Notes under the pieces: model-generated
Told to the model about the DNA's origin: nothing
Database searches by the model: none
The model's input: the letters and a program-made list of their open reading frames with translations, nothing else
From: a virus
Reading direction: 5' to 3' (one strand)
IMG/VR virus record: IMGVR_UViG_3300032278_000002
Coordinates: 1-64,000 of that record
Length of the DNA stretch: 64,000 bases
Made by a program: the position numbers and the translations under genes
Shown here: positions 14,555 through 59,826 of the stretch, in pieces
How the letters are laid out: each line of letters begins with the position of its first letter
Position numbering within the stretch: position 1 is the stretch's first letter

Positions 14555-14692
14555 AGTATGTTTGGATTAAAAGTTAACTTTCACATAACCAGAATAGCAC
14601 ACACGTTGAAAAAAAGGAGCTTTTTCGAATTTTTCTTGAAATTAGCTAAAAGTTGAGGAAACTGCTCCTGTTTTTTGATTTTAAAAAAGCCC
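14555..14692 (-). promoter_or_regulatory. Leader before capsid gene with palindrome and possible promoter
   Basis: A 138-base AT-rich gap between scaffold and capsid genes. On the minus strand an extended -10-like sequence TGCTATTCT (hexamer at 14591-14596) has no good -35. Between it and the capsid ATG sits the perfect 12-bp palindrome AAAGTTAACTTT (14570-14581). No Shine-Dalgarno sequence is visible before the ATG at 14554. A separate capsid promoter or mRNA-processing or stability element is plausible; I see no convincing terminator here. Confidence 0.3.
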
Positions 14693-35990: not shown

Positions 35991-36763
35991 CAGTACTGGA
36001 TACAATACTAGCGACCTTCATCCTTGTGGTGCTTGGGTTCACGCTTCGTGGTTTGGTGGCTTACGCCAGTGAACGCCAAAGACTAAGGCTCCCCAAGCCA
36101 GTTCATGAGGACAAGGCATTCCGTGACAAGTTGGACTCAATCAAACATGAGGACAATGTCATAAGCTTCTTTGATGACCTCGGCCCTCCTCCATCCCAAC
36201 TTGATATCAGCGGTTTCATGCATAACCATCGTTCGGTTGAGGAGTATCAACTCTACGGTATTCGCCGCTGCTGTCGGCTGCTCCTCGACCCAATACATCC
36301 ACACAGCGAGGATTGGCCTTGGAGATGCCGAGCACGCTTGGGAGGTGTCTCCGGTTACAGGGGAAATCGCTTCCACTCCCTGCCCAAGAAGGTTCTGTAT
36401 CAGCAAGCCCTTGAGTATTTGTCGGAGAATGCATCGCACCACCAGCTCCTTGATTGGAAAAGCTTCTACCGCAACCACCCCGAAGAAGAAATTGCCATGA
36501 TAGCGGAATCCCAATCAATGGGCGGTCATAGCATCCCCGAAATGTCCAAGGAAATATGCCAAGCTCTCGGATCAATGCTCACCCCCCGCCAACAACTCGA
36601 CACCTTGTGCAAGGAGATATTCCCCGACATGGAACCGTACGCCGCTCGCTCTCGATTCCGATGGTACAACAGGCGATGGGTGCAAACCCATGACGAGGCA
36701 GGGACGCCTGTGGACATGGCAGACAAGGCAATCGAAAAGGGAGGACACCACGATGTCAGTTGA
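35987..36763 (+). CDS. Membrane-anchored unknown protein
   Basis: 258 residues from ATG 35987. One N-terminal hydrophobic segment (ILATFILVVLGFTLRGLVAY, residues about 7-26) without a signal cleavage site suggests an inner-membrane anchor; the rest is soluble, with a Trp/Arg-rich centre and helical C-terminus. No family. A GCCTGTGGACAT copy sits near its 3' end, 36 bases before the next ATG. Confidence 0.7.
   Translation: MTVLDTILATFILVVLGFTLRGLVAYASERQRLRLPKPVHEDKAFRDKLDSIKHEDNVISFFDDLGPPPSQLDISGFMHNHRSVEEYQLYGIRRCCRLLLDPIHPHSEDWPWRCRARLGGVSGYRGNRFHSLPKKVLYQQALEYLSENASHHQLLDWKSFYRNHPEEEIAMIAESQSMGGHSIPEMSKEICQALGSMLTPRQQLDTLCKEIFPDMEPYAARSRFRWYNRRWVQTHDEAGTPVDMADKAIEKGGHHDVS
36706..36717 (+). 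promoter_or_regulatory. GCCTGTGGACAT motif upstream of the long operon
   Basis: The 12-mer GCCTGTGGACAT matches the core of the three promoter-like elements and is 36 bases before the ATG at 36753, but the TTTTAACC block is missing. Possible internal promoter for the AAA+/VWA operon. Other GCCTGTGGAC copies lie inside genes at 39837, 42920 and 47542. Confidence 0.4.
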
Positions 36764-37019
36764 CAACATATTGAAGAGAGCGGGGTTTCATTCCCCCGAC
36801 CAAGTGAAGGAACATCTCGCCTCGATACCTAGTTCGGTCGATGGCGTCATTGGCTCCCGAAAATTCATTCATGCTCCCAGTTCCCGTCTCGTGAATGCCT
36901 TGCTGTACCAAGGAATCAATCATGTCACGCCGTTGATGCCCGGTGAGGTAAACACGGGGCGTGCGTGGAGGTGCCCGACCAACGAAGTTCGTAATTACGA
37001 AGGAGGTTACTGTGAATAA
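36753..37019 (+). CDS. Small unknown protein at operon head
   Basis: 88 residues from ATG 36753, with GGGAGG upstream. Contains SVDNILKRAGFHSPDQVKEH and a C-terminal stretch with two Cys. No family. Overlaps the next gene by 8 bases (GTGAATAA), indicating coupling to the 1,063-residue protein. Confidence 0.68.
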   Translation: MSVDNILKRAGFHSPDQVKEHLASIPSSVDGVIGSRKFIHAPSSRLVNALLYQGINHVTPLMPGEVNTGRAWRCPTNEVRNYEGGYCE

Positions 37020-40000
37020 GTTTCTTAAGAATCTCGAGAGGGACAACCTCTACCCGTTGGGGCGTGACGCAACCCTGTCCGATTGGAAGTCGGGCAGGTT
37101 CGTTCGCATGTTCGCTCCAAGTAGTTGGTACTCATCAATGAGGCACCGAATGGATCCCGATGCCGACCACCCAACGGGCCCGCACCGAGTAGGCGGCCAA
37201 GGTATTACGCACTCCAGTAAAGCCTCCCTGCACTTGCCTAGTTGGTTTCATGAATCATACGACCTTAAGTGGAACGCAAATGTTTGCGGTAGACCCCTCG
37301 CAGTAAGCGAAGGGCAAAACTTCAATACCTCTTGGGGAACGAATGGCAAGAAAGATGTATTCAAGGATGATTTCCATGGTGTGCTACCCGAAGGCTACTT
37401 GTTAATTCCCCACGACTTCTTGATAGGGTCTGAGCCAAGGTGGGAATCTCCCCTGAGCCTGTTCGAATACCCATTCTATGCACCGTTCGCCACCCTCACC
37501 TCCTTGTTTCATGACTCGGGAGCCAGCATAGTGGACAAGTGGGAGTTGGAAGATGAGTCAAAGGGGTACGAAGTACGCTATCAACGGGAGCTTGTATCCA
37601 AAATCAATGCCAAGTGGTGGGTCGGCAAAGCCAAGACCTGTCGTCACAAGATTGAATACATACTCAAGTGGTTGCGAGACCCCACGCTTGACCTCCGCGT
37701 GAGGTGGGGAATCACTCCCAGCGATCAATTGAAAACTAGCAAAGAGAGATTCACTTGCACTGACGTGGCGGAATTGTGGAATTCCTATGACAATCCGGAA
37801 GAACCCTACGCTTTGCGGTATAATCTTAGGAATGACTACGGTCACCAAAGAAAGGATCCAGACCAGACTAGTGGCAAGCACCTCGATGGCACCAAGAGCA
37901 TAATCTACGGACGGAGGTTTGAACTGAACAGCGACCGCGTGCGATTGCGTATCGGGATGATGCCTCGCTTGAAACAGTACATTGTCTGCAAGGACACTTA
38001 TTCACCTGCATTGGCCGCGCCTTGCAAAGAATATAAAACTGATGCAGTCGCCAGTCGCAGGGAGACTGGTTCATGGGACGCAACGCGCTTCCGTGCTCAT
38101 CCCAACTACAATGACGCCCAAGACCACCTCTTCACTACTCCCATCAACTTGTTGGGAGTGTTCGGGGAACAGCGCAACTCCTTGATCAAGGACAACCTTT
38201 GCTACAAAGCTCATACGGATTCACACTATCGCAGCCCCAAAAGGTCTTGGTTCTATGTCAATACGCCCGTGCCAGATGCAAAGAGCGAGCACGGCCGTGT
38301 TAGAACAACGCTCGAGCTGGGCTGGACACACATTCGTTCGTTCAACTTGTGTTTCAAGCGGGTTGGGCAGGGACTGTATGAGTGGAAGGATTTGGGATGG
38401 GAACTCCCCGAGGAATCATATGACCCGCCGGGAGCTGAAACCAATACAAAGGCGGACAATCAACTCATGGCCGTTCGGTGGCTCACCGCACGTATGAACA
38501 AGGAGTTGAAGGGACGTTGGTATCTGCGAACAACTGGGCCCGCTTACACAAACCTCCCAATTAAAGGCACGAACAGAAACAGCACCCATCAACAGATAGC
38601 GTGGCTCGGCGAGTGGATCAACATGCTGGAGACGTTGATGGAAACTGACCGCCGAGGCGCCGAGTACTTGGCTCTGATGATGAACCAACTAATTGACCCG
38701 AAAAGAACAACTGGTTGGGACAGTCCCCGGTATCAATTGAATGCCGAGATGAAATTCATCAAAGGCAGTCACCCCGGTCGCCTTCGAAAATTGATAAATG
38801 ACCCCAATATACTGACACCGCCCACGGGCTTGCCCGATTCTGAGAGAGAATCACTACACAAAGCACGCAACGTGTTCTATAAGTATCTTCCAGCTTTTAC
38901 CGTCAAAATGTTCAAGAAAGCGAAAAAGGATTACCTCAAGCAGAGGCATCATGAGGATTGTGACCAAGTCTTGACTTGCAAATGCCCACCCAACGGAGGC
39001 TTGAATATTTCCTACAAGTACTTGAAGCAGTTATATCGCAAGAGATGTAACCTAGCCGTCAAGTGGCACATATCCGACAACGACTGTCAAAGTGGAAAAG
39101 TATTCAATGCATTGACTGGTTCCCTTGTCGTCCTACTCCCTCGAAACAGGGTATCTCATAAGCAGAGCCGAGACGGACCCACGATACTCAATACCATGAA
39201 CGTTGATTATTCCGGCGGATTCATTGTGTTGTCCAACGGAACCTTGGATTCAATGCACGTGTCCGAAGCTACCGGTCACCATCAGCGGGGACAATATCCG
39301 GAAGGGGATTCTCCGCCATTCGCAGGGCCCGTGAGGTTCAGATGCACCGTTGATGCGGTAAGGGCTTTCCGCGATCCATATGTCAGCGCCTTGTCCTCCA
39401 AAGAATTCAAAGGATACCCAGCCACGTACGCATACGACCGCCCCTATTGCGTGGTAAGGAAATCAGAGAGACAATCAACCCCCGACTGGTTGTTGGTTCG
39501 ATCCCATGCCAGCGTGACCGAGGTTCGCCCGAAAGAAGAGATAGCTCATGACCTCCGAGTCCATCAAATTACGTACGATAGGCTCAAGTTGGAACTGGCC
39601 AATGGCGTGGATGCCGCCGGCATGCCGCTGAGCAAGCGATCTCGGTTGGATTATGTGAACTGCTACCTCCCTCGGTTGGAGAATCAACTTAAGTTCCCTC
39701 GGGAATTCAACCAACACAGGGTGTCCAAGGGGTTTGACGAACAACTTCAATTAACTAACTCGATAGGTCAGCTTTACCACGACCGATCAATTGGACAATT
39801 TCCGGTCATGAGTACGGCGTATGCAGTGCTATTTATGCCTGTGGACATGTTCGATGCCTCTCCAATGGAAATATACAACTGGATGAAAGATTATTGTGAC
39901 AAGTTGATCACCCGCTCCCTTCGCAGTCGCAGGTATTGCTACGCCAATTGCGTGTGGCAATCACTACATAAGCTACGGTGGTGGGCCAAGTCTTTTGGGC

Positions 40001-40203
40001 TGACTCGGAAATTCAACCGCCAGTTTCCCATGAACAAGTTGGAGAATATATACATGAAACAACTGATTCGGTACCGAGTGAAAAATTTATGTCCGCTTAC
40101 TGGGCGGCCAATGAACAGAACAACAAATGTAGATACCTTCCGTGAACGCGAGGGGTATGTACGAAACGTAAAGGAAGAAGAAATATGGAAATACCAACGC
40201 TAA
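37012..40203 (+). CDS. Large unknown protein linked to AAA+/VWA operon
   Basis: 1,063 residues from GTG 37012 (AAGGAGG is 5-6 bases upstream). Rich in Trp, Tyr, Arg and His, predicted mixed alpha/beta with no transmembrane segment. A C-x-C pair occurs in DQVLTCKCPP (about residue 660), and the C-terminal 80 residues are basic (KHKLRWW-type patches). No motif of a nuclease, polymerase or protease was recognised. It ends 19 bases inside the MoxR-type ATPase gene, so it is likely the partner or substrate of that system. Its size and lack of recognisable family make it the main unknown of the window. Confidence 0.8.
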   Translation: MNKFLKNLERDNLYPLGRDATLSDWKSGRFVRMFAPSSWYSSMRHRMDPDADHPTGPHRVGGQGITHSSKASLHLPSWFHESYDLKWNANVCGRPLAVSEGQNFNTSWGTNGKKDVFKDDFHGVLPEGYLLIPHDFLIGSEPRWESPLSLFEYPFYAPFATLTSLFHDSGASIVDKWELEDESKGYEVRYQRELVSKINAKWWVGKAKTCRHKIEYILKWLRDPTLDLRVRWGITPSDQLKTSKERFTCTDVAELWNSYDNPEEPYALRYNLRNDYGHQRKDPDQTSGKHLDGTKSIIYGRRFELNSDRVRLRIGMMPRLKQYIVCKDTYSPALAAPCKEYKTDAVASRRETGSWDATRFRAHPNYNDAQDHLFTTPINLLGVFGEQRNSLIKDNLCYKAHTDSHYRSPKRSWFYVNTPVPDAKSEHGRVRTTLELGWTHIRSFNLCFKRVGQGLYEWKDLGWELPEESYDPPGAETNTKADNQLMAVRWLTARMNKELKGRWYLRTTGPAYTNLPIKGTNRNSTHQQIAWLGEWINMLETLMETDRRGAEYLALMMNQLIDPKRTTGWDSPRYQLNAEMKFIKGSHPGRLRKLINDPNILTPPTGLPDSERESLHKARNVFYKYLPAFTVKMFKKAKKDYLKQRHHEDCDQVLTCKCPPNGGLNISYKYLKQLYRKRCNLAVKWHISDNDCQSGKVFNALTGSLVVLLPRNRVSHKQSRDGPTILNTMNVDYSGGFIVLSNGTLDSMHVSEATGHHQRGQYPEGDSPPFAGPVRFRCTVDAVRAFRDPYVSALSSKEFKGYPATYAYDRPYCVVRKSERQSTPDWLLVRSHASVTEVRPKEEIAHDLRVHQITYDRLKLELANGVDAAGMPLSKRSRLDYVNCYLPRLENQLKFPREFNQHRVSKGFDEQLQLTNSIGQLYHDRSIGQFPVMSTAYAVLFMPVDMFDASPMEIYNWMKDYCDKLITRSLRSRRYCYANCVWQSLHKLRWWAKSFGLTRKFNRQFPMNKLENIYMKQLIRYRVKNLCPLTGRPMNRTTNVDTFREREGYVRNVKEEEIWKYQR

Positions 40204-41276
40204 CGCCAACCGAGCTAACTCAATGCTTGAAATTGGCTTTCATCAATAATGAGAACACTATTGTCACGGGGGCACCGGGACAGGGGAAAACGGCTCTCGT
40301 CAAGGACGCCATTCGTGCGGTCGGCTTTGACTCGATATTCGTTCACCTCTGCTGCAGTGACCCGGTGGATGTAAAGGGGATGCCACACTTCGACAAGGAT
40401 CCGGAAACCGGGGACACGGTGCCCAACTTCCTCCCCTTCGGAGACATGCGACGCATGATGTACGCCAAGAGGCCAACGGTGGTGTTCTTGGACGACTTCG
40501 GCACTGCACCGATATCAGTTCAAACCGGATACATGCAAATCGTTCAAGAGAGAAGATTGAATGATTTCCCAATCAGCGAGCACATCCGGTTCTGCATTGC
40601 CACCAACCGTTCGGACGACAAGGCCGGTGCCAACCAAGGCGTGATCGAAACAATCAAGGGTCGCGCTACCATCTTGCCAACACGCCCGGATGTCGCCGAG
40701 TGGTGCAATTATGTCAGCAAGCACGGCGTGGCTGATTACAGCGATGAACCATATGACCCATGCCCGCATGAGTTGTTGGCCTTCGCCCGCTTCGTCAATT
40801 CCAAGGGAACTCCGCTGTTCGAGTTCAAGGCGGAGAAGAACGTGGAACACCAGTGCTGTACTCCAAGGAACTTGTCTAGGATGGGCAGGTGGATCAATCG
40901 CTACCAAGAAGAAAGCATCGATATGTCTGATATTCCCTTGGCTGTCATCCACGGCACCGTGGGAGATGTGGTCGGTACCAAACTGGCCGGGTTCGTCAAG
41001 ACTATCAGCAAGTTACCTTCGTTCGCCGAGATTATGAAAGATCCTTACGGCACCCGCGTCCCCAACGAACCAAACGAGTGTTACGCGTTGGTTGGGTTCT
41101 TGGCCAACAAGGCTGATCATAAGAACTTCGATGAACTCGTAGACTACGTGCTTCGTTTCTCGCCCGAGTTCCGGATGGTGTTCCAACAGGACGTGGTCAC
41201 TAACAACGAGGCGTTGATGCAAGTATCCAAGTACGATGACCTGCTTCAATCCACCAAGGAAGTGGTGCTACCATGA
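40185..41276 (+). CDS. MoxR-type AAA+ ATPase
   Basis: 363 residues. Walker A GAPGQGKT (29-36), Walker B VVFLDDFG (99-106), sensor-1 region CIATNRSDD (Asn141) and a C-terminal lid. This is the compact MoxR/CbbQ/CobS-like clade that works with VWA proteins to remodel or load partner proteins. The VWA partner is the next gene, overlapping by ATGA. The target here is probably the 1,063-residue protein or a host factor. Confidence 0.9.
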   Translation: MEIPTLTPTELTQCLKLAFINNENTIVTGAPGQGKTALVKDAIRAVGFDSIFVHLCCSDPVDVKGMPHFDKDPETGDTVPNFLPFGDMRRMMYAKRPTVVFLDDFGTAPISVQTGYMQIVQERRLNDFPISEHIRFCIATNRSDDKAGANQGVIETIKGRATILPTRPDVAEWCNYVSKHGVADYSDEPYDPCPHELLAFARFVNSKGTPLFEFKAEKNVEHQCCTPRNLSRMGRWINRYQEESIDMSDIPLAVIHGTVGDVVGTKLAGFVKTISKLPSFAEIMKDPYGTRVPNEPNECYALVGFLANKADHKNFDELVDYVLRFSPEFRMVFQQDVVTNNEALMQVSKYDDLLQSTKEVVLP

Positions 41277-42574
41277 CACGGATAAACGTAGCACCAACAT
41301 CAGCTCCCCTCAGCAAAGAGGACCAGAAAGACCTTATCGACAAGGGCACCCTCCGAATCAGACGCATTCAATGTCGGAAGCTGGTCATGGAAAAGCCCTT
41401 TTGGGCGGCGATCATGTATCAATTGTTGATGTCGGTTCGCATGGGAGAGGGCACTGCTTGGACGGACGGCCGCCGACTGGTGTTCGATGCTCAATTCATC
41501 GACTTGTTGACCGAAGAACAACTACTCGGACTCATCCTACACGAACTAGCTCACGTGGTGTTCATGCACCACCTTCGCCGAGGACCCCGGGACGGTCAAC
41601 TCTGGAACATGGCGGCTGATTATTGCATAAATTGGCTGTTGGTTCATGTCGACAGTCAAGTCCTGCCCGATGGGGCTCTTCTCGAGGATGAGTACAAGGA
41701 TGACACGGCTGAACAAGCTTACGCCAAGTTGTACAAGAAATATCCGCCGCCGCCGCAGGGGCATGGGAACCCTCCCGGACCTTGCAATGGTGGGCTGGGA
41801 GGTCAGCAACCACCGGGTGTGCCCGGCGTACCTGGCCAAGATTGGGGCGAAGTACGCGATGCGACTGGGGAAGGGGACGTAAAATTAACCGATTCCCAAA
41901 AGAAAGCGGCCGAGCAGCTGATGGCAGTGTCAATTCGACAAGCGATGAACACCGCCAGACGCCAAGGCAAGATGCCGGGTGGCTTGCGGGAGAAATTCGA
42001 GGGGTTACTCAAACCTACCGTTGATTGGAAGAAAATTCTCAACGACTTCTTGTCAGAAAGATTCCCCTTGGATTACAGTTGGACCACGGTCAATACTCGA
42101 CGCAGCCTCCCCGACTCCTGCCTCCCGGGCAGGGACGGAATCCAATGGGCACGGGTTGCCGTTGCCATCGACACGTCCGGTTCCGTGACAGTGGATGAGA
42201 TCCGGCAAATGTGCTCGGAGATAATGCACTGTCTGGACTGCTATGATTCAAATGGTCAAGGGATGGAAATTGACGTCCTTTACTGTGACACTGAGTTACA
42301 CGGCCATGAAACACTGACGTCCGGCGACATGCCGTACCAAGAAATCAAGGGAGGCGGAGGCGGTACCATGTTCTCTCCAGTCATGGAGGAGTTCAAGGAC
42401 CGTCAATACCTCACCGAAGACCCAGCCGCCTTGATCTACATGACGGACGGCTGCTGTGATGATTTCGGGGATGATCCCGAAATCCCTGTCCTCTGGATGA
42501 TGGTCGGGGATTACTATAATAAAACATTCAAACCACCGTTCGGCACTGTTAGCCGGATGGAACTTGCTAACTAG
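41273..42574 (+). CDS. Metallopeptidase-like VWA protein (DUF2201 type)
   Basis: 433 residues. The N-terminal half has a zinc motif HELAH (residues 90-94) with a third ligand candidate in WNMAADYCIN (Asp116), as in DUF2201 putative metallopeptidases. A Gly/Pro-rich linker (about 158-190) leads to a VWA domain with MIDAS DTSGS (Asp300, Ser302, Ser304) and a later TDG. The family pairs with MoxR AAA+ ATPases. Peptidase activity is not proven: the Zn motif may be structural. ATGA overlap with the ATPase gene. Confidence 0.88.
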   Translation: MTRINVAPTSAPLSKEDQKDLIDKGTLRIRRIQCRKLVMEKPFWAAIMYQLLMSVRMGEGTAWTDGRRLVFDAQFIDLLTEEQLLGLILHELAHVVFMHHLRRGPRDGQLWNMAADYCINWLLVHVDSQVLPDGALLEDEYKDDTAEQAYAKLYKKYPPPPQGHGNPPGPCNGGLGGQQPPGVPGVPGQDWGEVRDATGEGDVKLTDSQKKAAEQLMAVSIRQAMNTARRQGKMPGGLREKFEGLLKPTVDWKKILNDFLSERFPLDYSWTTVNTRRSLPDSCLPGRDGIQWARVAVAIDTSGSVTVDEIRQMCSEIMHCLDCYDSNGQGMEIDVLYCDTELHGHETLTSGDMPYQEIKGGGGGTMFSPVMEEFKDRQYLTEDPAALIYMTDGCCDDFGDDPEIPVLWMMVGDYYNKTFKPPFGTVSRMELAN

Positions 42575-42584
42575 GAAAGGAAAA

Positions 42585-43556
42585 ATGACTAAGCTACATA
42601 TGGCTACTAGCCAAAACGACCCCAGAAATGGGAAAATACTACAAATCGCCAAGCTCAAGGGACTTCGTCCCCACTTCACCAAGTGGGTCAACGGTATTCT
42701 GATTGAGCAGGGCTTCGTTGACTCCGATGGAACGGCTAAGGGCGGATTAGGCCACGCTGTCCGTGGGCCTTTGGTCGGTGACGACCGGGTCGAGGAGTTC
42801 TACGATAGAGTAATCAATGGATTGGAGGCCGTTGAACCTCTTGCGCCCGGAGATCCCTTGCCCGAGGGACATCCGTTTGCAATTCCCCTCGCCGAGTTGA
42901 TGGCAGGAGAAAAGGAGACGCCTGTGGACCGCACGAGCACAATAGAAAAATACACGGCTGACTCCGAAGAAGTTGAAGCCCATTCCAAGAATGATGGCGA
43001 GGTTCGAGGCGTTGACAGCAAGGTCGATCCGCTCGATGCCGCTCAACCCTGCCCCGAGCTGGCTTGCCAAGTGGATGAACAAGTCGGTGACCCAAATCCA
43101 TTGGCCCACGTAACTGCTGATGAACTCGATGGTTTCCGGGAATTCATGACGGGAGCTAAGGATACTGCCAAGGAAGCGCTCAAGGAAGTGGTTGTTCTCG
43201 GTGAATCCAATATGCTCATGGAGGGGAGACTCTCCGCTTTGGAGCAACAAAACTCCGCTCAACGACTCGACAAGGTCGAAGACATACTCGGGAATTGCTC
43301 GAATCCGTGTCAAGGTGATCCCGACGAGACTCCAGCTCAGACACTCAATGTGATTGAGGCCCGACTCAGCCAAGCGGAGGTATCTCTCCAAGACTTGGGG
43401 GACTCTCTCCCCGGGGGAGCTAGCAATCGTGATGGCGCGGACATTGCTGCAATTACCGCAAGCATAACGCACGCCGTGCTTGATGAAGTAGTCAAGCTGT
43501 GTGTTACCCGTAACGATCTTCAAGTTTTACTCAACCTAAATAAGGAAGGCAAATAA
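42585..43556 (+). CDS. Unknown protein with coiled-coil C-terminus
   Basis: 323 residues from ATG 42585 (AGGAAAGGAAAA upstream). N-terminal 85 residues look folded (LRPHFTKWVNGILIEQGFVD); the middle is acidic and disordered; the C-terminal 150 residues form a predicted coiled coil (ALEQQNSAQRLDKVEDIL, VIEARLSQAEVSLQDL). No family. Ends in TAATG overlap with the next gene. Confidence 0.72.
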   Translation: MTKLHMATSQNDPRNGKILQIAKLKGLRPHFTKWVNGILIEQGFVDSDGTAKGGLGHAVRGPLVGDDRVEEFYDRVINGLEAVEPLAPGDPLPEGHPFAIPLAELMAGEKETPVDRTSTIEKYTADSEEVEAHSKNDGEVRGVDSKVDPLDAAQPCPELACQVDEQVGDPNPLAHVTADELDGFREFMTGAKDTAKEALKEVVVLGESNMLMEGRLSALEQQNSAQRLDKVEDILGNCSNPCQGDPDETPAQTLNVIEARLSQAEVSLQDLGDSLPGGASNRDGADIAAITASITHAVLDEVVKLCVTRNDLQVLLNLNKEGK

Positions 43557-44416
43557 TGACGGATATAAGAAAGAAGGCTCAACTAGTGGCGCTGCAAGTC
43601 AGCAGCTGGGGTGGGCAGAAAGTCGACAGGAGTGTGTCAATCGCTACCTGTCAATCGCAGAACGCCGATCGCAAGTCGGGAAGTTTTGTAAAGAAGTTGG
43701 TACCTCCCGAGGCTCTTAAGCCTAGGGGGCGTGCCGTCAATGCGCTACGTGAGTTCATCAACCACATAACGCTCCCATGGGACAGGGGTCGGCGACTTCT
43801 CCCCAACCAATCGTACATGAAGAACCTGCCATCAATCGACAAGCACATACAAACCGTCAATGATTGCACCAACACCTTCTTGAACGATTACGCTTCTTGG
43901 GAGCAGGCGGGGAAAGCTCAGCTCGGCAATATGTACGATCCCGGGGATTACCCATCAATCCCGGACTTGAGGCAACGCTTCAGTATTGACCTCGAGTTCG
44001 AGCCCATACCGAGAAAGGAGCACTTCCTCCTCGATATGCAACAAGCAACGGTCGATGAAATTGCAGCCAAGGCCGAGAAGGTCGTTTCCAAACGAATGCA
44101 AGAAGCTCAACAGTCCGTGTGGACTGGCCTCCTCGAGGTGACGAGCCACTTCGCTGACGTAATGGCCCAACCGGACAAGCGATTCAAGTCATCCACTCTC
44201 ACCAACTTGTTGGACACCTTGGAAGTGGCTCCCTCTCTCAATCTTGAGGATGACCCTGTGCTTAATGACGTGGTAACCGACATTCGCACTTGCCTCAAGG
44301 GGCTTGACGCTGATCAACTCCGCAAGAATCCGTTACTTCGCAAGACTGCGGCCAATGCAGGCACGAAAATCGTTGGCGAAATAGAACAAATCTTAGAAAT
44401 GGCAGATGCCGTTTAA
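43556..44416 (+). CDS. DUF3150-like protein of the AAA+/VWA operon
   Basis: 286 residues, mostly helical with conserved-looking aromatic and basic patches: LVALQVSSWGGQKVDRSV at the start, NHITLPWDRGRRLLPN near residue 75, then a long helical region. This layout and its place beside AAA+ and CobT-like VWA genes agree with DUF3150 proteins found in similar mobile-element operons. I judge the family from pattern and context only. Possible adaptor or oligomer partner of the ATPase system. Confidence 0.5.
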   Translation: MTDIRKKAQLVALQVSSWGGQKVDRSVSIATCQSQNADRKSGSFVKKLVPPEALKPRGRAVNALREFINHITLPWDRGRRLLPNQSYMKNLPSIDKHIQTVNDCTNTFLNDYASWEQAGKAQLGNMYDPGDYPSIPDLRQRFSIDLEFEPIPRKEHFLLDMQQATVDEIAAKAEKVVSKRMQEAQQSVWTGLLEVTSHFADVMAQPDKRFKSSTLTNLLDTLEVAPSLNLEDDPVLNDVVTDIRTCLKGLDADQLRKNPLLRKTAANAGTKIVGEIEQILEMADAV

Positions 44417-44990
44417 CCTAAAAACCAAAAGAAAGAACAGAATAGTGAAAACAATAGTAGAAAAACCAATAACCGTACGTGATCGCGTACGGAATGTAAT
44501 AGAGAATAACTCAACACTTCCCACGCTGGACGTCATGTCGCAGGAAATGGGAATAAACAAGGCGAACCTATCCAATGAAATCTCGGTCATGCGAGGCTTG
44601 GGGTGGTCAATTGACATAATTGGCGAGAGGGGCAATCCCCGAGGTTACGTGGTAACTCCTCCTCACACCACATGGACCCCGGATGAAAAGAGGAGCTCAC
44701 TAGCTCGGTCAATGGAGCAATCGGGAATATATCGAGCGGAAGATGGAACGTTTCGAGCTGACCAGAAGAAGAAGGCCAAGAAGAAGCAACACCGGAAAAC
44801 AAGGCGAGAGCTTGCGGGAAAGCAACTGCAAGAAACAATTGCCCGACGCCGGAACCCGCAGCTCGACATAATACTGCACGTAACTGACTTGGATGCCAAG
44901 CTGACCCGGTACGCCAAATACTTCGTAGTTCTACTGGGGGTGATATCAGTCAGTATCGCCGCCCTCGCAATACACACAATAATCAACTGA
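44406..44990 (+). CDS. Winged-HTH protein with C-terminal membrane anchor
   Basis: 194 residues from ATG 44406 (GTG 44447 is an alternative). Residues about 25-75 form a winged or HTH domain (TLDVMSQEMGINKANLSNEI); a Lys/Arg-rich linker follows; residues about 168-190 are a transmembrane helix (FVVLLGVISVSIAALAIHTI). A membrane-tethered DNA-binding protein is unusual in phages and might anchor DNA or sense membrane state. Confidence 0.68.
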   Translation: MPFNLKTKRKNRIVKTIVEKPITVRDRVRNVIENNSTLPTLDVMSQEMGINKANLSNEISVMRGLGWSIDIIGERGNPRGYVVTPPHTTWTPDEKRSSLARSMEQSGIYRAEDGTFRADQKKKAKKKQHRKTRRELAGKQLQETIARRRNPQLDIILHVTDLDAKLTRYAKYFVVLLGVISVSIAALAIHTIIN

Positions 44991-45010
44991 TCTGGGAGGA
45001 TCACATCAAT

Positions 45011-45646
45011 ATGGCTATAAAAACCAACAACGCATTGTCAGCTTTCGGTAAGAAGGCGGCAACTACATCAACGAAAGTCTACTCAAAGCTACCGGACCCG
45101 GACGGCACTATCTCCAAGATGGTCGACCAACGGGTGGATTGCGCTAGCACCGAGAAGGCCGCTTCCGGCACCAAGAAACAAATCGATGGTGTCTTGAAGA
45201 ACTACGGCCTCGATACTTGGGTGGATAACAACGAGGATAAGGACCTCACCGAGGACACGTTCCAAGCGGACGGCAAGTCCGGCTCGGTGAAGGTCATATT
45301 CACCAGCCGTTATTACGACCTAACCATCGACCGAGAAGATCCGAAGTCAGCCCAACGCCTCAGCGAAATCCAATCACTGTTGGGCCTATCATACGGACGG
45401 TTCGTCACGGAGAAGTTCAAGCTGGACGTGGATGGTTCCGCCATACCGGCCGACCAACAAGAAGACTTCCTCGGCGAGCTCGCGGAACTTCTCGAGAAGC
45501 ACGGATCCAACCCGGCGGAAGCTGTCCAAGTGAAGGAGGTGCTGGCCATCAGCAAGAAGTTCCATGGGGAACGACACTCCATACTGTCCCAAGAAGAGAA
45601 CAAGCACTTCCACGACTTGTGGTCCTGTGTAGTGGCGGTAAAGTAA
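45011..45646 (+). CDS. Unknown protein before ligase-like gene
   Basis: 211 residues with CTGGGAGGATCA upstream (GGGAGGA at proper spacing). Mixed alpha/beta: early Lys-rich segment, then a beta segment (GSVKVIFTSRYYDLTIDRED) and helical C-terminus. No family recognised. Coupled to the next gene by TAATG. May be a partner of the ligase-like protein. Confidence 0.68.
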   Translation: MAIKTNNALSAFGKKAATTSTKVYSKLPDPDGTISKMVDQRVDCASTEKAASGTKKQIDGVLKNYGLDTWVDNNEDKDLTEDTFQADGKSGSVKVIFTSRYYDLTIDREDPKSAQRLSEIQSLLGLSYGRFVTEKFKLDVDGSAIPADQQEDFLGELAELLEKHGSNPAEAVQVKEVLAISKKFHGERHSILSQEENKHFHDLWSCVVAVK

Positions 45647-46374
45647 TGCAAGACAACATTCCGGGATTACTACCAACGGACCCGGATTCATTACCGTTCT
45701 TCCATCAGCGTCCCATGACGGGTGGAAGATTCGAGCAGCAGTTGGGGTTCATCCCCCAGCTGCTTAGCTTGAAGTATAACGGCTGGATGGCTCTTATCCA
45801 TCTGACATCCATGAGGATGTTCAACCGACATGGTCAGCCGTTAAGCATCAGTGATGAGTTCGCATCCGTCATCAATACGTTGAGCAGACACTCGATCCGT
45901 ATTCCGCACCAGCAATCCGATCCAGCGTGGCTTGTTTGCGAGGCACTCCAACGTCGACATGACATCGGGCGAGGCTCTTTGTTCGTAATTGACTATTGGG
46001 ACTGCCTTTCCACTCAGGATCCACATGCTGGGACGCATTGGAAAAACTCAAAGGGACGTTACTCGGCAGGGACCAGCAAATCCTCGATGCATGCTCCTCC
46101 ATTCATAGAGCGGCATGAAAGGCTGAGGACCTTTCTCCCTGTCCATGACTGGAGAGACAAGCCGCGGGAAAACAACGTGTATCTCATTGATCAATTCGCG
46201 GCCTCGGATGAAAGGGCCACGGATATCTGGGAAGAAATCCCCGAGGTCAATGAACGTTGGGGCTGTGAGTTCTATGAAGGATTCGTGGCCACGCAACGCA
46301 ACAGTCAGCTGAAACCGCAGTACAACTCAAACAACAAATGTAGCCATATTATAAAGTATAGACATGATAACTAA
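45646..46374 (+). CDS. Minimal ATP-dependent ligase-like nucleotidyltransferase
   Basis: 242 residues from ATG 45646. Order of motifs fits the adenylation domain of polynucleotide ligases: motif I SLKYNGW (Lys43; Asn replaces the usual Asp), motif Ia MRMFNRHG, motif III LVCEA (Glu99) with FVIDYWD (Asp116), motif IV YEGFV (Glu211) and motif V SHIIKYR (Lys237). No OB-fold domain remains, so it is a minimal form that would need partners. Could join DNA nicks or repair RNA. The motif I change keeps the call tentative. Confidence 0.6.
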   Translation: MQDNIPGLLPTDPDSLPFFHQRPMTGGRFEQQLGFIPQLLSLKYNGWMALIHLTSMRMFNRHGQPLSISDEFASVINTLSRHSIRIPHQQSDPAWLVCEALQRRHDIGRGSLFVIDYWDCLSTQDPHAGTHWKNSKGRYSAGTSKSSMHAPPFIERHERLRTFLPVHDWRDKPRENNVYLIDQFAASDERATDIWEEIPEVNERWGCEFYEGFVATQRNSQLKPQYNSNNKCSHIIKYRHDN

Positions 46375-48877
46375 TGAAAATCCAGTACTAACCTACTCCA
46401 TTGACGGGTTGATTCAAATCAACTTGATGGATGACCAACGAGTCGAGCTCGGCAAGGAGTGGTGTGAAAAACTCGAGTGCTTCGATGGCAAGATCGCCGA
46501 AGAAGTTATTCGTGAGCAATACTTGAGGGAACATGCTCAAGAAATAATAGATGCCTATAACGATGACTTGTTCAAGATAGCAGTATCAGTCGAGATCAAG
46601 TTGAACGTAGCGTTAAAGGCATACGGGAAAGCCTGCGCTCCATTGATGCCCCCAACTGACTATGAGCTCATCGCCTACGTGGATGGGTTGCAGAAGGGGT
46701 TGGTTTGTGACGACGCCGTATCCGGCATGTCGTTCACCAAGGGATGGACATATCCTGTCCGCACGGAATTCTTCGAGTATTCGGAGAAGTTCGTAGTCAA
46801 TCGTCCTTATTACGATGAAAAGACCAAGAGCTATCTGAAAAAGAAGCACCGGATCAGCCGTAAAGGGAAGGATCGAGCCATCGTTGTTCGGGACGACTTC
46901 GGCGAGGAGAACTACTTCTTGGAAAAGCCGACCCTGTTTCCAACGAGCCGGCTGCCCTCGAATGGGCAATACAGACTGCACGACATCGATTGTATGTGGC
47001 TGGCTTTCCAACGGCCTAAGATATCCACGGTCAAGGAGACCTTGAGAGAAACGTATGATGATGTGATCAATCGGCTCGAGGTATATGAAATGATGTGCGG
47101 ATTCGAATACTATGAAGGTCAGCGAGATTTCATTGCTCGCATGGCGTGCCGGGACTTCGGCATAGTGGGCGCCGCCTGCGGATGCGGGAAATCCTTGATG
47201 GCTATCACATTGATGAAGGTGAAGGAGGATGCCTTGAAAATCTTACTCATAGCACCGGCATCAACTGTGACCAGCGGAAATGGGTACACTCCCGCTCAAT
47301 GGGCGCAAGAGTTTGCCGACTTCGCTCCCGACATCAACACCTTCGAGTTGTTCTCGTTCGATCACTACGAGTTGTTGAAGAAACGGTACAAGGGCAAGCT
47401 GCCCCCCGGAGTGTACATCACTTACCCCGAAGCCATGTTTACTTCGGGCGCTCGGGAGTACTTACCGCAAACATGGAAAGAGGAAGGCCGAAAGGATCCT
47501 TGGCTGGTCGAACGAAAGTTCCGGAAAATCATGAAGATGCCGCCTGTGGACGAGGACAATCTCATACATGAGGAGCAGTATCACAAGGGGCTTGGACAAA
47601 CTTGCGGAGAAGGGGAGATACTCTGCGTTGCGAAACCTAGTCTGAGTTCGGTGGTGTCCCAAGAACAAGGCGACTTCGACATGATCGTATTGGACGAGGC
47701 CCACACCGTGGCGGCGAACATAAAGTCACAGAGAGGTCGCGCGTTCCTTCGAATGCAGTCAAAGTACCGGTACTGCCTATCGGCTACTCCCATTCCCAAT
47801 AATATTGGCGACTTGTTCGGGATAATGGGATGGGTCACCGTTCCCAAGTGGTACAGGGGGAACAAGCGCTCAGTTAGCTTCCCTTACTCAATTGAGCAAA
47901 AGGGTAACTTCGAATCCGCTTACTTGACCTACGAAGATGACTTGACCGCCACCATGCGAGCATCGGTCAAATATGTCAAAGGTCGGCAAAGAAGAGTGCG
48001 AAGACGGTCCAACATAGTGAGTCAACCCACTAGCCTGCTCAAACTACTGAAGCCTACCATTGGATATGTTGACAAAAGCGACTGTCGGAACGACATGCCC
48101 AAATGTATCATCAATGAAGTTAGGGTTCCGTTGGGACAAATACAAGCGCGGGCGTACCACATTGCCAAGAGTATGGCGAGAGGGGCCTTTGCCCGATACA
48201 GCCAGCTTAGGCAAGTGTGCGCGGACCCTTCCGCTTATGGATCGCCTCCGGAAAATCCAAAAACCATGACCGTGCTGCAATTAGCGCTGCAGTGTCTCGA
48301 GAAGCACGAGCAGGTGGTAATCGTGTCGGCACGCCACGGAATGACCAACGCGTTGGAGGAAAAATTCTGGGAGTCTGGAGTAACGACTTCTCGATTGGAC
48401 GGGTCTATGTCGTCGAGAATGCAAAGCCAAGAATCACAGGATTTCAAGGATCAACGAACACAGATTATGTTGATGGGAATCAAATGTGCGATGGGTCATT
48501 CCTACCCGCAGTGCCCCAACTTGATATGTACGAGCTTGGAGTGGAGTTACGGCACCAAGGAACAAGCCTTCGGGCGTGTGTTCAGAGTCAACTCTCCCAA
48601 GACAGTCAATATCTGGTGTGTGCTGCATGCGGAATCCATCGAGGATACCATGTTCTCCCGAGTCAGCGACAAACAGGAGTCAGCATTGCTCTGTCTCCAT
48701 GGAAAACGAATGACTCGCACACCCAAGTTCTCCACACCGGAGGACATCTTGGCGGAACACCTCATTGATTACGCCGCCGGGGAAACGATAGATGAACAAG
48801 TTTGCATAAGGGAATGGCCGTCCTTACGCACCAAGCTTGCCGATGCGGCCCAAATATTCGACCCAACACTAGCATGA
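46364..48877 (+). CDS. Large SNF2-type superfamily 2 helicase
   Basis: 837 residues. N-terminal 250 residues are unique. Then GQRDFIARMACRDFGIVGAA leads into Walker A GCGCGKS (about 272-278), the DEAH box in IVLDEAHTV (about 440), motif III LSATP, and C-terminal motifs V and VI (ICTSLEWSYGTKEQAFGRVF). Second SNF2-like helicase of this phage; the other is 419 residues at 22.4 kb. Overlaps the ligase-like gene by 11 bases and the integrase by ATGA. Confidence 0.85.
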   Translation: MITNENPVLTYSIDGLIQINLMDDQRVELGKEWCEKLECFDGKIAEEVIREQYLREHAQEIIDAYNDDLFKIAVSVEIKLNVALKAYGKACAPLMPPTDYELIAYVDGLQKGLVCDDAVSGMSFTKGWTYPVRTEFFEYSEKFVVNRPYYDEKTKSYLKKKHRISRKGKDRAIVVRDDFGEENYFLEKPTLFPTSRLPSNGQYRLHDIDCMWLAFQRPKISTVKETLRETYDDVINRLEVYEMMCGFEYYEGQRDFIARMACRDFGIVGAACGCGKSLMAITLMKVKEDALKILLIAPASTVTSGNGYTPAQWAQEFADFAPDINTFELFSFDHYELLKKRYKGKLPPGVYITYPEAMFTSGAREYLPQTWKEEGRKDPWLVERKFRKIMKMPPVDEDNLIHEEQYHKGLGQTCGEGEILCVAKPSLSSVVSQEQGDFDMIVLDEAHTVAANIKSQRGRAFLRMQSKYRYCLSATPIPNNIGDLFGIMGWVTVPKWYRGNKRSVSFPYSIEQKGNFESAYLTYEDDLTATMRASVKYVKGRQRRVRRRSNIVSQPTSLLKLLKPTIGYVDKSDCRNDMPKCIINEVRVPLGQIQARAYHIAKSMARGAFARYSQLRQVCADPSAYGSPPENPKTMTVLQLALQCLEKHEQVVIVSARHGMTNALEEKFWESGVTTSRLDGSMSSRMQSQESQDFKDQRTQIMLMGIKCAMGHSYPQCPNLICTSLEWSYGTKEQAFGRVFRVNSPKTVNIWCVLHAESIEDTMFSRVSDKQESALLCLHGKRMTRTPKFSTPEDILAEHLIDYAAGETIDEQVCIREWPSLRTKLADAAQIFDPTLA

Positions 48878-49893
48878 GTATTAACAAAGCAGTTAACGCG
48901 TGGTCCGAATGGTTGGGGGAGACTCTCTCCCCCGCCCTTCGGGACACATATGAAAAACGACTGAAAGCTTTCGCCAAGAGGCGGAAGCTCAAGGACGTCA
49001 CTTGGAAAACCATCAACCAGTTTCTGAGAGACAAAGGCAAACGCGGGTTGAAGTACAGTACGATCAAGCAATATATCAGCGCTTTGAAAAGCTTCTGCAA
49101 ATTTGCTTACGCCGAGGGCTTGCTGGACAAAGACCCGTCTTCACTGATAAAGATACGGCCGCAAACCTTAGCCATACGACAGCTCGAGGATGAGCCGCGT
49201 GTTCCGTTCACCTACGACGAGTATGAGTCAATCTTGGCGTACGTCACGATGTGGGAACATGGGGCAAAGCAGATGAAGACACGGCAATGGGCCACCTTCT
49301 GGAAGATTGCGGTTCCCTTGTCGTACTGGACGGGAGTTCGTCTGCATGACTGCGCTTGCCTCGAGGTAGGTAATTTCTATTACGAGTTGTTTGACTACGA
49401 GCTGCCGAAATTTGCAGGCATGCTTTTTTGGACGAAGAAGAGAAACAAGAGGGTCTTTCTACCACTGGATAATCCGCTGATAGGTCACCGTCATTTGGTG
49501 GACATACCGAACCAATTGAAAAGAAGGTCATGGATCGCCGCCGCCTCCGGTGCAGTATCCCACCAATACGGAAATGCCGAGAAACTGGACGATCTCAACG
49601 GGGAGTTCTATTTCCCCCTGCAATATAGACTTATCGACTCTCCTCAAAGAAACCAATTCTCCCAGCGATTCAAAAGAATCACCGACTCGTTGGGCATCCA
49701 TGGAAAAAGTTTCCATTGCCTAAGGCATTCGTTCGCCACCCGCTTGGAAGAAGCTGGCGTAACTTACGAGGATATCGCTAGATTTATTGGACATGGTCAA
49801 ACGATAACCACCCAAGGGTATTGCCACGGGCAAGAGTTGCCCGATTTAGGTATCCCGAACCAAGCTAGAAAATTCTTCAACCCGAAATACTGA
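48874..49893 (+). CDS. int: Tyrosine recombinase (integrase)
   Basis: 339 residues from ATG 48874. N-terminal core-binding domain (about 1-100) then catalytic domain with Arg156 (TGVR), Lys188 (WTKKR), His281 and Arg284 (HCLRHSFATR), His307 (GHG) and nucleophile Tyr316 (QGYCH). This is a complete catalytic set. Suggests a temperate life cycle or resolution of phage DNA. No flanking attachment site is recognised. Embedded in the early operon rather than isolated beside a tRNA. Confidence 0.9.
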   Translation: MSINKAVNAWSEWLGETLSPALRDTYEKRLKAFAKRRKLKDVTWKTINQFLRDKGKRGLKYSTIKQYISALKSFCKFAYAEGLLDKDPSSLIKIRPQTLAIRQLEDEPRVPFTYDEYESILAYVTMWEHGAKQMKTRQWATFWKIAVPLSYWTGVRLHDCACLEVGNFYYELFDYELPKFAGMLFWTKKRNKRVFLPLDNPLIGHRHLVDIPNQLKRRSWIAAASGAVSHQYGNAEKLDDLNGEFYFPLQYRLIDSPQRNQFSQRFKRITDSLGIHGKSFHCLRHSFATRLEEAGVTYEDIARFIGHGQTITTQGYCHGQELPDLGIPNQARKFFNPKY

Positions 49894-55952: not shown

Positions 55953-56068
55953 TGTTTTAGTATATTTGCGATAAGGAGATGTACCTCTGCATAGGGGCGA
56001 GTGGTCAAGATACTTAGGATAACATTAACCTCTTCTTCGGTAAGGCTCAACTGGTATTTTTCTAACAT
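55907..56068 (-). CDS. Small helical protein
   Basis: 53 residues from ATG 56068 (TCGGA just upstream). LSLTEEEVNVILSILTTRPYAEVHLLIANI is split into two helices, a pattern seen in many small phage proteins of unknown role. Overlaps the spanin-like gene by 46 bases and the 1,254-residue gene by 7. Confidence 0.62.
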   Translation of the reverse strand: MLEKYQLSLTEEEVNVILSILTTRPYAEVHLLIANILKQCALSKPSESSPSSD

Positions 56069-59000
56069 TCCGATATATGTATTCTGTCTAGGTAATAAGC
56101 ATAAGGAGAGGGTGAGCTGGGGGCATCCGAATACGATCTCACGTATATGGTGTAGGTTCCCGAAACAGGCACAGTGATAAGGGGCCACTCGTCGTCCGCC
56201 ATGGTGACCGGAGTGCCGTCAATGGTCCCTACGTTCGAAGACCAACTCGCCCCCGAGGCCAAGGTAAAGGCCGAATCATCCGAAAGGGTTCCGGAAATGT
56301 CCGTGTTGGCATACACCGTAGCATCTCCCACGAACTGTATTTCGTAAGTCTTTGTCTGATCCAAGTAAACGTCTTGTTGAGCTATGATGGGATCGTAATC
56401 CGGAGGTATGGTGCCGGAGTTCCCCCACCCACCTGTTGCAAACTTACCATCAGCCATGTCAAGGTGGTCCAAGGAAACGGTGTTATCTACGGTCCATCCC
56501 GCGAACGCTCCACTGGTTTCCATGAATTCCCCGTTCGTCAACACGTTGCTGGTAAAGTCCATGACATGGAACGAGTTGGCTGAGTTTCCAATGCCGGGCT
56601 GAATAGGTTCCCCCGACAGCGGTGTTCTACCATTCCGCCGAGCGGCTATGGTGAACGAATGGTCCGTCACGTCCTTGATGGGGTACACACCCGTAACTAT
56701 TTCTGCTACGTTTTGCACCAAGATCCAAGCCCCTTCCCTATATTGAGGGAAATTGGACAAGTTCTCTATGGTAACGATGATTGCATCGCACTCCGAGAAC
56801 GCCAAGTAATCCAAATACACGCACGTGTGGTGTTGAGCGGTGAACTCCAGACAACCTAGAGTCGCCACGCTGGCGCCCCCTGTCCCGGTAACGGTGAAAG
56901 CATCCTCGGGGACTGCCGTAGTCCCATCACATTCAATTGGAGGAGGCGTCCCGGGGTCCGGTGGGTCGGGGGGATCCACGGGGGGATCTATTAACTCCTC
57001 TTCCGCACAGTCCACGCCGGGAGTACAATCGCCGTCGTTTAGCTCATAGCAGCAGGAGCCGTCCCACACCCAGCCGGGCGGGCATGGCTGGTCTACGCAG
57101 ACAGGGTCTTCGTCCTCATCTTCGCCGACAGGTGTTGGGATCGGCGGCTCGGGAGGACTCCCCACCGGGTCTCCCATGACAGTACAGGAAGCCGGGCATT
57201 CCCACAAATCGTTATCAGGCTGTCCCCCGGCAGTTATCAAGGAATTTTGATAAATTTCACCAATTCCTACGATTCGACTCAATTCTTCAATGGCAACTAC
57301 GCCGGCTTCCAAACTACCTGCGTCACAATTCAAGGTGAATATCCCGTGAGTGGCGCTTTCGCAGTCCCCATGATCCCACAAACCGCTGTCGCAATCCACT
57401 CGGGTGGGATGTTCATCCGTTTCGGCACCCGTTGGGGAAGCCATCGGCGGATCCCAATCGTCCAACCAACTCGCGCCGAAGGACCAAGGGTGGAATACTT
57501 CGGTATCTTGAAAATCCCATATATCCAAGGAGACCCACTCATCCCCATTCACCAAGAAGTTGGTGGGTCCATAGGTACGGTCGGCGTCGGAAGAGGCCCC
57601 TTTTTCAAAACCAAAGGACTGGATGGTACCTGATTTTTGGGACATCACCCACCCGTTGGCAGTTAGCGTTTCCGCCGCGTAATACACGGTTTGACCCGCT
57701 GCGGAGGCGCCGTTGTACGTTACATCCCAGACACCGTCGGATTTGATCCATTTCCAACCATCCATTCCCGGTACGTCCGAACCGGATTCCGTACTCTCCT
57801 CGCAAGCGTCCTCGGTGCAGGATCCCTTAAAAACAGCGTTCGACCCTCGCTCCGCTCCGGGGTGCGCAGTGGTGAAGTCGTTCCAGAAGGTCTTGAACTC
57901 GGCGAAGGTTATGGTCCCGGATTCATACTCCGCCCATTTTACAGCGGCCCAGCTTGGAAGGTACGGCAGGGTCGCTCCGTACAGGGGAACGTCGGTAGTG
58001 CTCCCGTTATTCAGCATCATTTCCATTAACCCAACCCAATCCGAGTACGGATTCAGCGATCCGGCGGCGAAATGGGTGTCGAAAGGGCCCACTAATTCAA
58101 CCGAGTATGAGAGTCCGTCGCTATCCGTGGGTATGAATACTTGCCCTTCCCCATTGGAACACCATGGCTCGAGATCGCCGTTGGCATCGCGCATCGAGCA
58201 CCCGAGGCCGGCGTAACTAAAACGTCGATGTCCCCAAGAAGCCACGCATTCGTTGTCGTTTTCAGGGTCCACCGCCCCGTCAACATCTTCCTTCAACCGG
58301 ACCGACCAATAACAACCTTCAATTGCCACCATGTTGTCGGCACCCTCTAAAATGAGCTCTTTTTTAGAGGATTCCGCGATAGTTGTGGCGCACACTCGGT
58401 AATCCACCAAAGTCCATTCCCCGGGGAGACCGGGAAGTCTTACGCAAGTACCGGGGTCGTACCGGCAACCGTCGTATTCCAAGGGGTGAAGGCATCTCCT
58501 TATGGTATTGCAGGGGAGCCCGAGCGACGCGGCTTGCGCCGTGGTTTGCACGCAAAGATCCACCAACTCGTCGATGGTATCCCACGTCTGCCCGTTCGCA
58601 GTGGGTTCGGGGATGATTACGCCCGCGGGTATCGCAGTTTCCACTACCCAGTAAGTAATGCGGCCGCAATCGTCGGGGTGCGAGACCTCGTCGGGATCTC
58701 CTGTAACGAAATACACGACTTGCCCCTCCGGCAGCCCCCCTGAGGGAACGGTATATCCATCGTTTAAAGGGACGGGCCAAACGTTTTCGCCGGGATATGG
58801 AATTATGGGCACATACGTAAGATCGTCGTCATCCGGATCGGGGTTGTCGCAGTCACAAACGTCGGTTTGAAGTACAAACTTCACATGCCCCGCACCCATC
58901 GGCCGGTGGCTGGCTCCGCCCCCACCCACACTTCCGCCAAACTGGGCGGGCGCGCGATAACAGCTTCCGCGGCGTCCTTCGGGCCAAGCATTTTCGATTC

Positions 59001-59826
59001 CCACTCGACCTGCGACCACGTTACCGTGGATATTATCCAAGACCGCGTCTTGGATGCCTCCCTCTCCGTGGTAAGGATCTCCGTTATATCTATCCGAATA
59101 GAGGAACCAGAAATCGTCGTAACTGGAGTGCCACATCCCATATGCGCAGTCTCCCGACGGCATGTCGTCGGTGTCCACATATTGGGAGTTCCACCCTATG
59201 CACTGAGATACATTACCACAGCGGGTAGCGTTAACTTGTTGATCGGAGGCTTCGCTTACCGCGGTTGCCCAAAAAGTCCCGTATTCGTTGTTGATGATCC
59301 GCACTTCGCAGTCGTCACCACACTCCCCTAACTTCAACACGTTGCTGTAATAAGTTCTCCAGTAATCAGACCCCGTTGATTTCCGATAAGGCGCCCCACT
59401 GTCTTCGTCGATGCCCCAGCCGGCCGGCGGCTTTCTAGGAAAGGTCAGCATTTCGGTGTCTTCTACCCACGGGCCCCACTCGTCGTCTACTTTACATCTC
59501 CTCTTTATTTTAAGGGGAAGGCAAAAATCCCGGGCTTCCGCATATGTGTGAAATTCATTGACGCCGTCTCCGTCATTGTCGTGGATATACTCACTCATCG
59601 AGATAGAGGAACCTGTGTCCGAAGAGGAGTCCTCGGAGCATCCGGCCCCTCCGGTGCAAGGAACATAGTCGCTCGTATCCTGCGCCAAGATAGTCGCGGA
59701 ATCCGGTCCCTCCCCGTCGCAACTCCCCGAGGGGTCGGTCATGAGGGGTTCCATCACAATCATGCCGAAATACCGGCGATGAATGACTATCTTCCCCCGG
59801 ATCTCACATATATTTGTATTTTTCAT
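56062..59826 (-). CDS. Large Cys-rich virion adhesin candidate
   Basis: 1,254 residues. Very rich in Cys, Asp, Gly and aromatic residues. Includes a calcium-loop-like DNDGDGVNEF (about residue 84), many Cys-containing beta modules, a Pro-rich linker (DPPVDPPDPPDPGTPPP, about 960) and a C-terminal beta domain of about 120 residues that resembles carbohydrate-binding modules (TITVPVSGTYTIYVRS-type end). No signal peptide is seen, so it is probably a virion surface protein acting outside the cell. Family unknown. Confidence 0.68.
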   Translation of the reverse strand: MKNTNICEIRGKIVIHRRYFGMIVMEPLMTDPSGSCDGEGPDSATILAQDTSDYVPCTGGAGCSEDSSSDTGSSISMSEYIHDNDGDGVNEFHTYAEARDFCLPLKIKRRCKVDDEWGPWVEDTEMLTFPRKPPAGWGIDEDSGAPYRKSTGSDYWRTYYSNVLKLGECGDDCEVRIINNEYGTFWATAVSEASDQQVNATRCGNVSQCIGWNSQYVDTDDMPSGDCAYGMWHSSYDDFWFLYSDRYNGDPYHGEGGIQDAVLDNIHGNVVAGRVGIENAWPEGRRGSCYRAPAQFGGSVGGGGASHRPMGAGHVKFVLQTDVCDCDNPDPDDDDLTYVPIIPYPGENVWPVPLNDGYTVPSGGLPEGQVVYFVTGDPDEVSHPDDCGRITYWVVETAIPAGVIIPEPTANGQTWDTIDELVDLCVQTTAQAASLGLPCNTIRRCLHPLEYDGCRYDPGTCVRLPGLPGEWTLVDYRVCATTIAESSKKELILEGADNMVAIEGCYWSVRLKEDVDGAVDPENDNECVASWGHRRFSYAGLGCSMRDANGDLEPWCSNGEGQVFIPTDSDGLSYSVELVGPFDTHFAAGSLNPYSDWVGLMEMMLNNGSTTDVPLYGATLPYLPSWAAVKWAEYESGTITFAEFKTFWNDFTTAHPGAERGSNAVFKGSCTEDACEESTESGSDVPGMDGWKWIKSDGVWDVTYNGASAAGQTVYYAAETLTANGWVMSQKSGTIQSFGFEKGASSDADRTYGPTNFLVNGDEWVSLDIWDFQDTEVFHPWSFGASWLDDWDPPMASPTGAETDEHPTRVDCDSGLWDHGDCESATHGIFTLNCDAGSLEAGVVAIEELSRIVGIGEIYQNSLITAGGQPDNDLWECPASCTVMGDPVGSPPEPPIPTPVGEDEDEDPVCVDQPCPPGWVWDGSCCYELNDGDCTPGVDCAEEELIDPPVDPPDPPDPGTPPPIECDGTTAVPEDAFTVTGTGGASVATLGCLEFTAQHHTCVYLDYLAFSECDAIIVTIENLSNFPQYREGAWILVQNVAEIVTGVYPIKDVTDHSFTIAARRNGRTPLSGEPIQPGIGNSANSFHVMDFTSNVLTNGEFMETSGAFAGWTVDNTVSLDHLDMADGKFATGGWGNSGTIPPDYDPIIAQQDVYLDQTKTYEIQFVGDATVYANTDISGTLSDDSAFTLASGASWSSNVGTIDGTPVTMADDEWPLITVPVSGTYTIYVRSYSDAPSSPSPYAYYLDRIHISEC

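Follow-up and report, generated by a model that had tools for sequence, protein, structure and literature searches.

Which proteins of a phage operon that pairs an AAA+ ATPase with a metallopeptidase-VWA protein belong to one machine, and on what would such a machine act? The question is raised by a locus in the window analyzed here (the whole stretch of 64,000 nucleotides, or 64 kb out of a 72,681-base uncultured virus record), in which the two genes stand immediately downstream of a gene for a 1,063-aa protein of no recognized family. The initial annotation read a series of nine coupled or closely spaced genes as suggesting an undescribed phage machine, with the large protein as its third partner. 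All nine ORFs were confirmed, all on the plus strand and several overlapping; they are given below with the two genes that follow them.

36753–37019, plus strand: 88-aa protein; no family, and no relatives among the loci fetched; its 3′ end runs into the 1,063-aa gene
37012–40203, plus strand: 1,063-aa orphan protein; GTG start, Shine-Dalgarno sequence GAAGGAGG; not part of the conserved triad
40185–41276, plus strand: AAA+ ATPase, assigned by profile to the N4 gp24 family (phrog_1297); Walker A and B; closest relatives of solved structure are AAA domains of midasin
41273–42574, plus strand: metallopeptidase-VWA protein, assigned by profile to the N4 gp25 family (DUF2201_N and DUF2201, phrog_1314); HELAHVVFMH and DTSGS motifs
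42585–43556, plus strand: 323-aa acidic protein; no family, weak coiled-coil signal, no counterpart in relatives
43556–44416, plus strand: DUF3150 protein of 286 aa; conserved third component
44406–44990, plus strand: 194-aa protein with a weak HTH at the N terminus and a single transmembrane segment at the C terminus; not kept in relatives
45011–45646, plus strand: 211-aa protein; separate module with the 242-aa gene
45646–46374, plus strand: 242-aa protein; KYNGW sequence resembling nucleotidyltransferase/ligase motif I; paired with the 211-aa gene
46364–48877, plus strand: SNF2-type helicase; translationally coupled to the upstream 242-aa gene
48874–49893, plus strand: tyrosine recombinase/integrase; coupled to the helicase gene, with an inferred start (~48874)

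Overlaps recur along the series: the 1,063-aa gene starts at its GTG (37012) before the 88-aa gene has ended, 19 nt are common to the 1,063-aa and ATPase genes, the adjacent VWA gene on the same strand shares an ATGA (4 nt) with the ATPase gene, and the DUF3150 gene, separated from the VWA gene by the 323-aa gene (order ATPase–VWA–323 aa–DUF3150), shares one base with its predecessor. Since the SNF2 helicase and integrase genes are coupled within the same run, the right boundary at 46374 is arbitrary rather than biological. The labels of some smaller genes are less certain. The coiled-coil signal of the 323-aa protein is weak; the 194-aa "HTH-membrane" protein does have a C-terminal hydrophobic segment (19-residue hydropathy 2.42), but its HTH is a weak phrog_1098 match (E 0.005); and the ligase-like label of the 242-aa protein comes solely from its KYNGW sequence, a Pfam search having returned no match. 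The 211-aa and 242-aa genes (45011–46374) recur as a pair in another virus, at positions 3104–5223, and neither the ATPase nor the VWA gene was found in the stretch of that virus that was searched; the pair may be an independent small module for DNA metabolism.

Elsewhere in the window, the minus strand at 12737–20514 encodes TerL, portal, and 605-aa proteins that are ~42–52% identical to those of a wide group of uncultured viruses, some with records of 72–81 kb. TerL finds almost no match among isolate phages, and the group is, on these comparisons, an unsampled phage group. A further minus-strand reading frame at 60417–63992 continues to record position 72668 (4,083 codons or more, still open where the contig stops) and adjoins a 1,254-aa orphan at 56062–59826; it has no Pfam or PHROG match over the 3,223-aa stretch scanned, and possibly encodes a giant virion-carried protein.

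The ATPase and the VWA protein belong to an already known pair of families, phage N4 gp24 and gp25. In a PHROGs profile search the ATPase matches phrog_1297 over residues 3–359 (E 3.7e-50) and the VWA protein phrog_1314 (E 4.1e-80), with Pfam adding DUF2201_N (E 5e-33) and DUF2201 (E 1.5e-17) for the latter. Inspection of the motifs confirms Walker A GAPGQGKT and Walker B VVFLDDFG in the ATPase, and a HELAHVVFMH zinc motif and DTSGS MIDAS in the VWA protein. Walker A is kept in 150 of 157 ATPase homologs; HExxH and the D.SGS positions of the MIDAS are invariant in the VWA-family alignment, and among 189 VWA homologs HExxHx4H is kept in 188 and D.SGS in 185. The DUF2201_N domain is a putative zincin metallopeptidase. 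Many RefSeq phage records carry the PHROG name "HNH endonuclease" for phrog_1314; nothing here supports that label, as no HNH domain was found and the protein consists of zinc-peptidase-like and VWA domains.

Homologs are widespread, with tblastn recovering the ATPase in 412 and the VWA protein in 430 isolate phage records, and annotated neighborhoods of these homologs name the two as N4 gp24 and gp25. In Schitoviridae, where they are core genes, the homologous ATPase and DUF2201-type metallopeptidase-VWA genes are adjacent or near-adjacent on the same strand; the N4-like loci examined differ from the window in having neither DUF3150 nor a 1,063-aa neighbor. The set of 14 core genes in N4-like phages includes both, with function listed as unknown, and both are middle-expressed in N4 (PMC4193335), while two MoxR-type subunits were noted in a Bacillus phage already in 2007 (PMC2147016). 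What had been called undescribed is, as far as the pair goes, in print; the part of that description that holds is a conserved AAA+/VWA-peptidase set with a third component.

Among proteins of solved structure, the best relatives found with the ATPase profile are the AAA domains of midasin (Rea1/MDN1; E 6e-19), in which client binding is likewise of MIDAS type; midasin, however, is one giant chain for ribosome assembly, whereas the parts in the window are separate genes. Against bpMoxR the ATPase reaches E 0.0026 and 17.3 bits, under the curated cut-off of 27, and "MoxR-type" is therefore correct in the broad sense alone. That weak match, along with the finding of ATPase/VWA combinations on mobile elements, is what could recommend an anti-defense or conflict role akin to the MoxR-vWA ternary conflict systems reportedly described by Kaur et al. 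in 2020. But no operon protein has a VMAP, FtsH-ternary, or beta-propeller match in Pfam or PADLOC, and PADLOC yields no convincing hit for the ATPase, VWA, or DUF3150 proteins. The proposal that the operon resists a defense gains no positive support here, and we consider such a role very improbable.

One published reading treats pairs of this kind as viral CobS and CobT, helpers of a cobaltochelatase that would borrow the CobN of the host and boost cobalamin synthesis; it has been advanced for archaeal tailed viruses (PLoS Biology 2021, PMC8651126) and for cyanophages (PMC9503304). CobS and CobT do share the AAA+ and VWA logic, and phage homologs are sometimes so named. However, neither protein in the window matches a CobS or CobT profile (Pfam, NCBIfam), and the VWA protein has instead an intact HExxHx4H domain. 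CobN was not found in the record by a search whose control was positive in 7 genomes, which also disposes of CobN as an identity for the 1,063-aa protein, a candidate suggested by its similar size and its place beside AAA+/VWA genes. We would give the cobalamin reading hardly any weight.

The large protein was the centerpiece of the initial annotation. Its ORF is a real gene, with a strong ribosome-binding site and a codon-position GC that resembles that of the other genes, and the product is strongly basic (K+R minus D+E = +41) and rich in Trp and Tyr. The statement that it belongs to no recognized family is borne out: no relative was found in Pfam, PHROGs, NCBIfam, or PDB sequences, by tblastn against phage and plasmid records, in three IMG/VR scans (whole protein and two halves) and one GTDB scan, or in 80 kindred virus records searched whole, where a positive control worked. 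Because the collection scans of IMG/VR and GTDB require an exact shared 8-residue peptide, distant relatives could escape them. Upstream sequence of 4 kb or more was available for 101 ATPase+VWA loci, and no homolog was seen in any of them; only 2 of these 101 have a same-strand upstream gene of at least 600 aa, one of them a terminase, and neither is related to the 1,063-aa protein by phmmer. Close TerL relatives (43–52% identity, 19 records) have neither a 1,063-aa homolog nor a VWA gene.

Its absence from every related locus examined means that the 1,063-aa protein cannot count as a conserved partner, the outcome that the initial annotation had itself named as refuting its claim, and the idea of a large third partner falls with it. 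The protein appears lineage-specific, as far as the searched collections extend, and is at most a client or accessory of the window phage's own. A lineage-specific third partner or client of the AAA+/VWA complex would fit its shared operon with the ATPase gene (the 19-nt overlap) and its size and high positive charge, which suit a dedicated substrate or nucleic-acid-binding partner; set against its absence from all 101 loci, we regard this as doubtful. Predicted structure adds little: AlphaFold run without an alignment gave a pLDDT of 34, unusable for want of homologs. An N4-type RNA polymerase, suggested by the position upstream of gp24/25, was rejected (hhalign against RNAPII, probability 0.3 percent). 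A PADLOC match to a type I specificity subunit (E 6e-5; 73 residues, 833–905) has no Pfam support and is likely due to chance.

The conserved third component of the AAA+/VWA set is instead DUF3150, which the initial annotation had listed without singling it out; its idea of three components stands, with a different third member. The DUF3150-like label of the 286-aa protein is well supported by its relatives and its fold. The window protein itself falls below threshold for the PF11348 model in Pfam, but 2 of 5 close relatives match that model (best E 4e-4), one homolog carries the DUF3150 annotation, and the predicted fold matches that of an annotated DUF3150 phage protein (E 3e-19); the protein is accordingly assigned to DUF3150. 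The model (pLDDT 86.6, pTM 0.75) is mostly helical with small sheets and has no solved match in the PDB at E ≤ 0.001. No paper found within the open-licence literature names DUF3150.

Linkage was assessed from both directions. A scan starting from the VWA gene found DUF3150 near both partners in 24 of the collected loci, and the reverse scan, starting from DUF3150, found ATPase and VWA genes together in 88 of 98 loci, and in all 41 of those flanked by 4 kb or more on each side. The order ATPase–DUF3150–VWA is nearly universal in the reverse-scan loci, always on one strand; in the window the three genes likewise occupy one strand in a span of a few kb, but their order differs, with DUF3150 after the VWA gene. 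Between the three proteins, distance matrices correlate at r 0.93–0.95 over 35 dereplicated triads, values that linkage alone would also be expected to produce, and co-inheritance of linked genes can arise without a physical complex. The dependence is one-sided. Most phage ATPase+VWA pairs, including those of all 8 isolates examined, have no DUF3150, which is therefore not needed for the pair as such; the reverse scan, with both partners in 41/41 sufficiently flanked loci, indicates that DUF3150 depends on the pair. Among 50,697 isolate phage records only 3 contain DUF3150, each of 65,014 bases and apparently one phage, against 292 confirmed hits in the IMG/VR scan. This rarity in isolates and abundance in uncultured phages may explain why DUF3150 has been overlooked. 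The triad is common to hundreds of uncultured phages and some plasmids.

The distribution of the triad also bears on what it might do. It is present on plasmids, those of Burkholderiales among them, of which several are typed conjugative (for example, Cupriavidus pMTS2, where the same three families occur in the order ATPase–DUF3150–VWA, and for which no study of the triad was found in the literature searched), and in bacterial genome contigs, at chromosomal, ICE-like loci. A Desulfosarcina triad locus adjoins genes for T4CP, ParA, and SSB, and one in Dechloromonas adjoins genes for RecT and a Toprim primase; a Toprim/zinc-ribbon primase gene is found shortly upstream of the ATPase or VWA gene in both Dechloromonas and Rhodocyclus. 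Phage loci lie upstream of replication genes such as that of a family A DNA polymerase, or beside primase and helicase genes. These contexts probably reflect a function common to mobile elements, one that we infer to fall in the replication or takeover phase; the neighboring replication genes do not pinpoint the client.

Another published proposal is that the ATPase and peptidase-VWA proteins act as a virion-assembly chaperone, folding or cleaving structural proteins. Iyer et al. (2021; PMC7824862) propose virion assembly with proteolysis for a MoxR AAA+ and metallopeptidase-vWA pair of group 2.2 jumbo phages, citing an AAA/VWA precedent in an archaeal virus; the two-component architecture is the same, with the peptidase fused to the vWA, and their passage on the pair does not mention DUF3150. 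Some structural genes also lie near gp24/gp25 in roseophages (PMC4193335). But the presence of the triad on conjugative plasmids and at ICE-like loci argues against a purely virion-assembly role, since no virion is made there, beside chromosomal T4CP, SSB, RecT, or primase genes; moreover, most close TerL/portal relatives in the records searched make virions without a VWA gene. We consider a virion-assembly role unlikely.

The reading that we give an even chance is that of a three-component, ATP-driven remodeling or proteolysis machine with DUF3150 as adaptor and a replication-phase client. The AAA+ ATPase, presumed to be a hexamer of the midasin/MoxR kind, would pull or twist the VWA protein, which in turn would bind the client, and possibly cut it, through its MIDAS site and its N-terminal zinc-peptidase domain. 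DUF3150 would serve as the obligatory adaptor or scaffold in the triad variant, and the client would be tied to the replication or recombination phase of the phage, plasmid, or ICE rather than specifically to virions. In NorQ/NorD and RavA/ViaA, likewise, an AAA+ ring and a VWA co-chaperone remodel a target, the clients there being cellular enzymes. Neither system is known to have a DUF2201_N peptidase domain or a DUF3150 protein. The structure of NorQ/NorD shows the AAA+ hexamer engaging, deforming, and remodeling its VWA partner (PMC13036017), and by analogy the VWA-peptidase would be remodeled by the ATPase, and DUF3150 would be the adaptor or scaffold. A bolder version, which we put forward tentatively and on balance lean against, is that of a dedicated three-part remodeling protease common to phages, conjugative plasmids, and ICE-like elements, in which DUF3150 would be a new adaptor fold, the client would belong to replication or host takeover, and the 1,063-aa protein would be an extra, fast-evolving client or nucleic-acid-binding arm.

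For N4 gp24 and gp25, which belong to the core of a large phage family, the published guesses at function conflict, ranging from virion chaperone to cobalamin enzyme, peptidase, and "HNH endonuclease." An obligate third component, and presence on plasmids and at ICE-like loci, count against the virion-only and cobalamin readings. The ATPase/VWA pair was known; the AAA+/DUF3150/VWA triad is the part worth following, as it constitutes a defined three-protein set for reconstitution, with plasmid copies that allow study without virion confounding.
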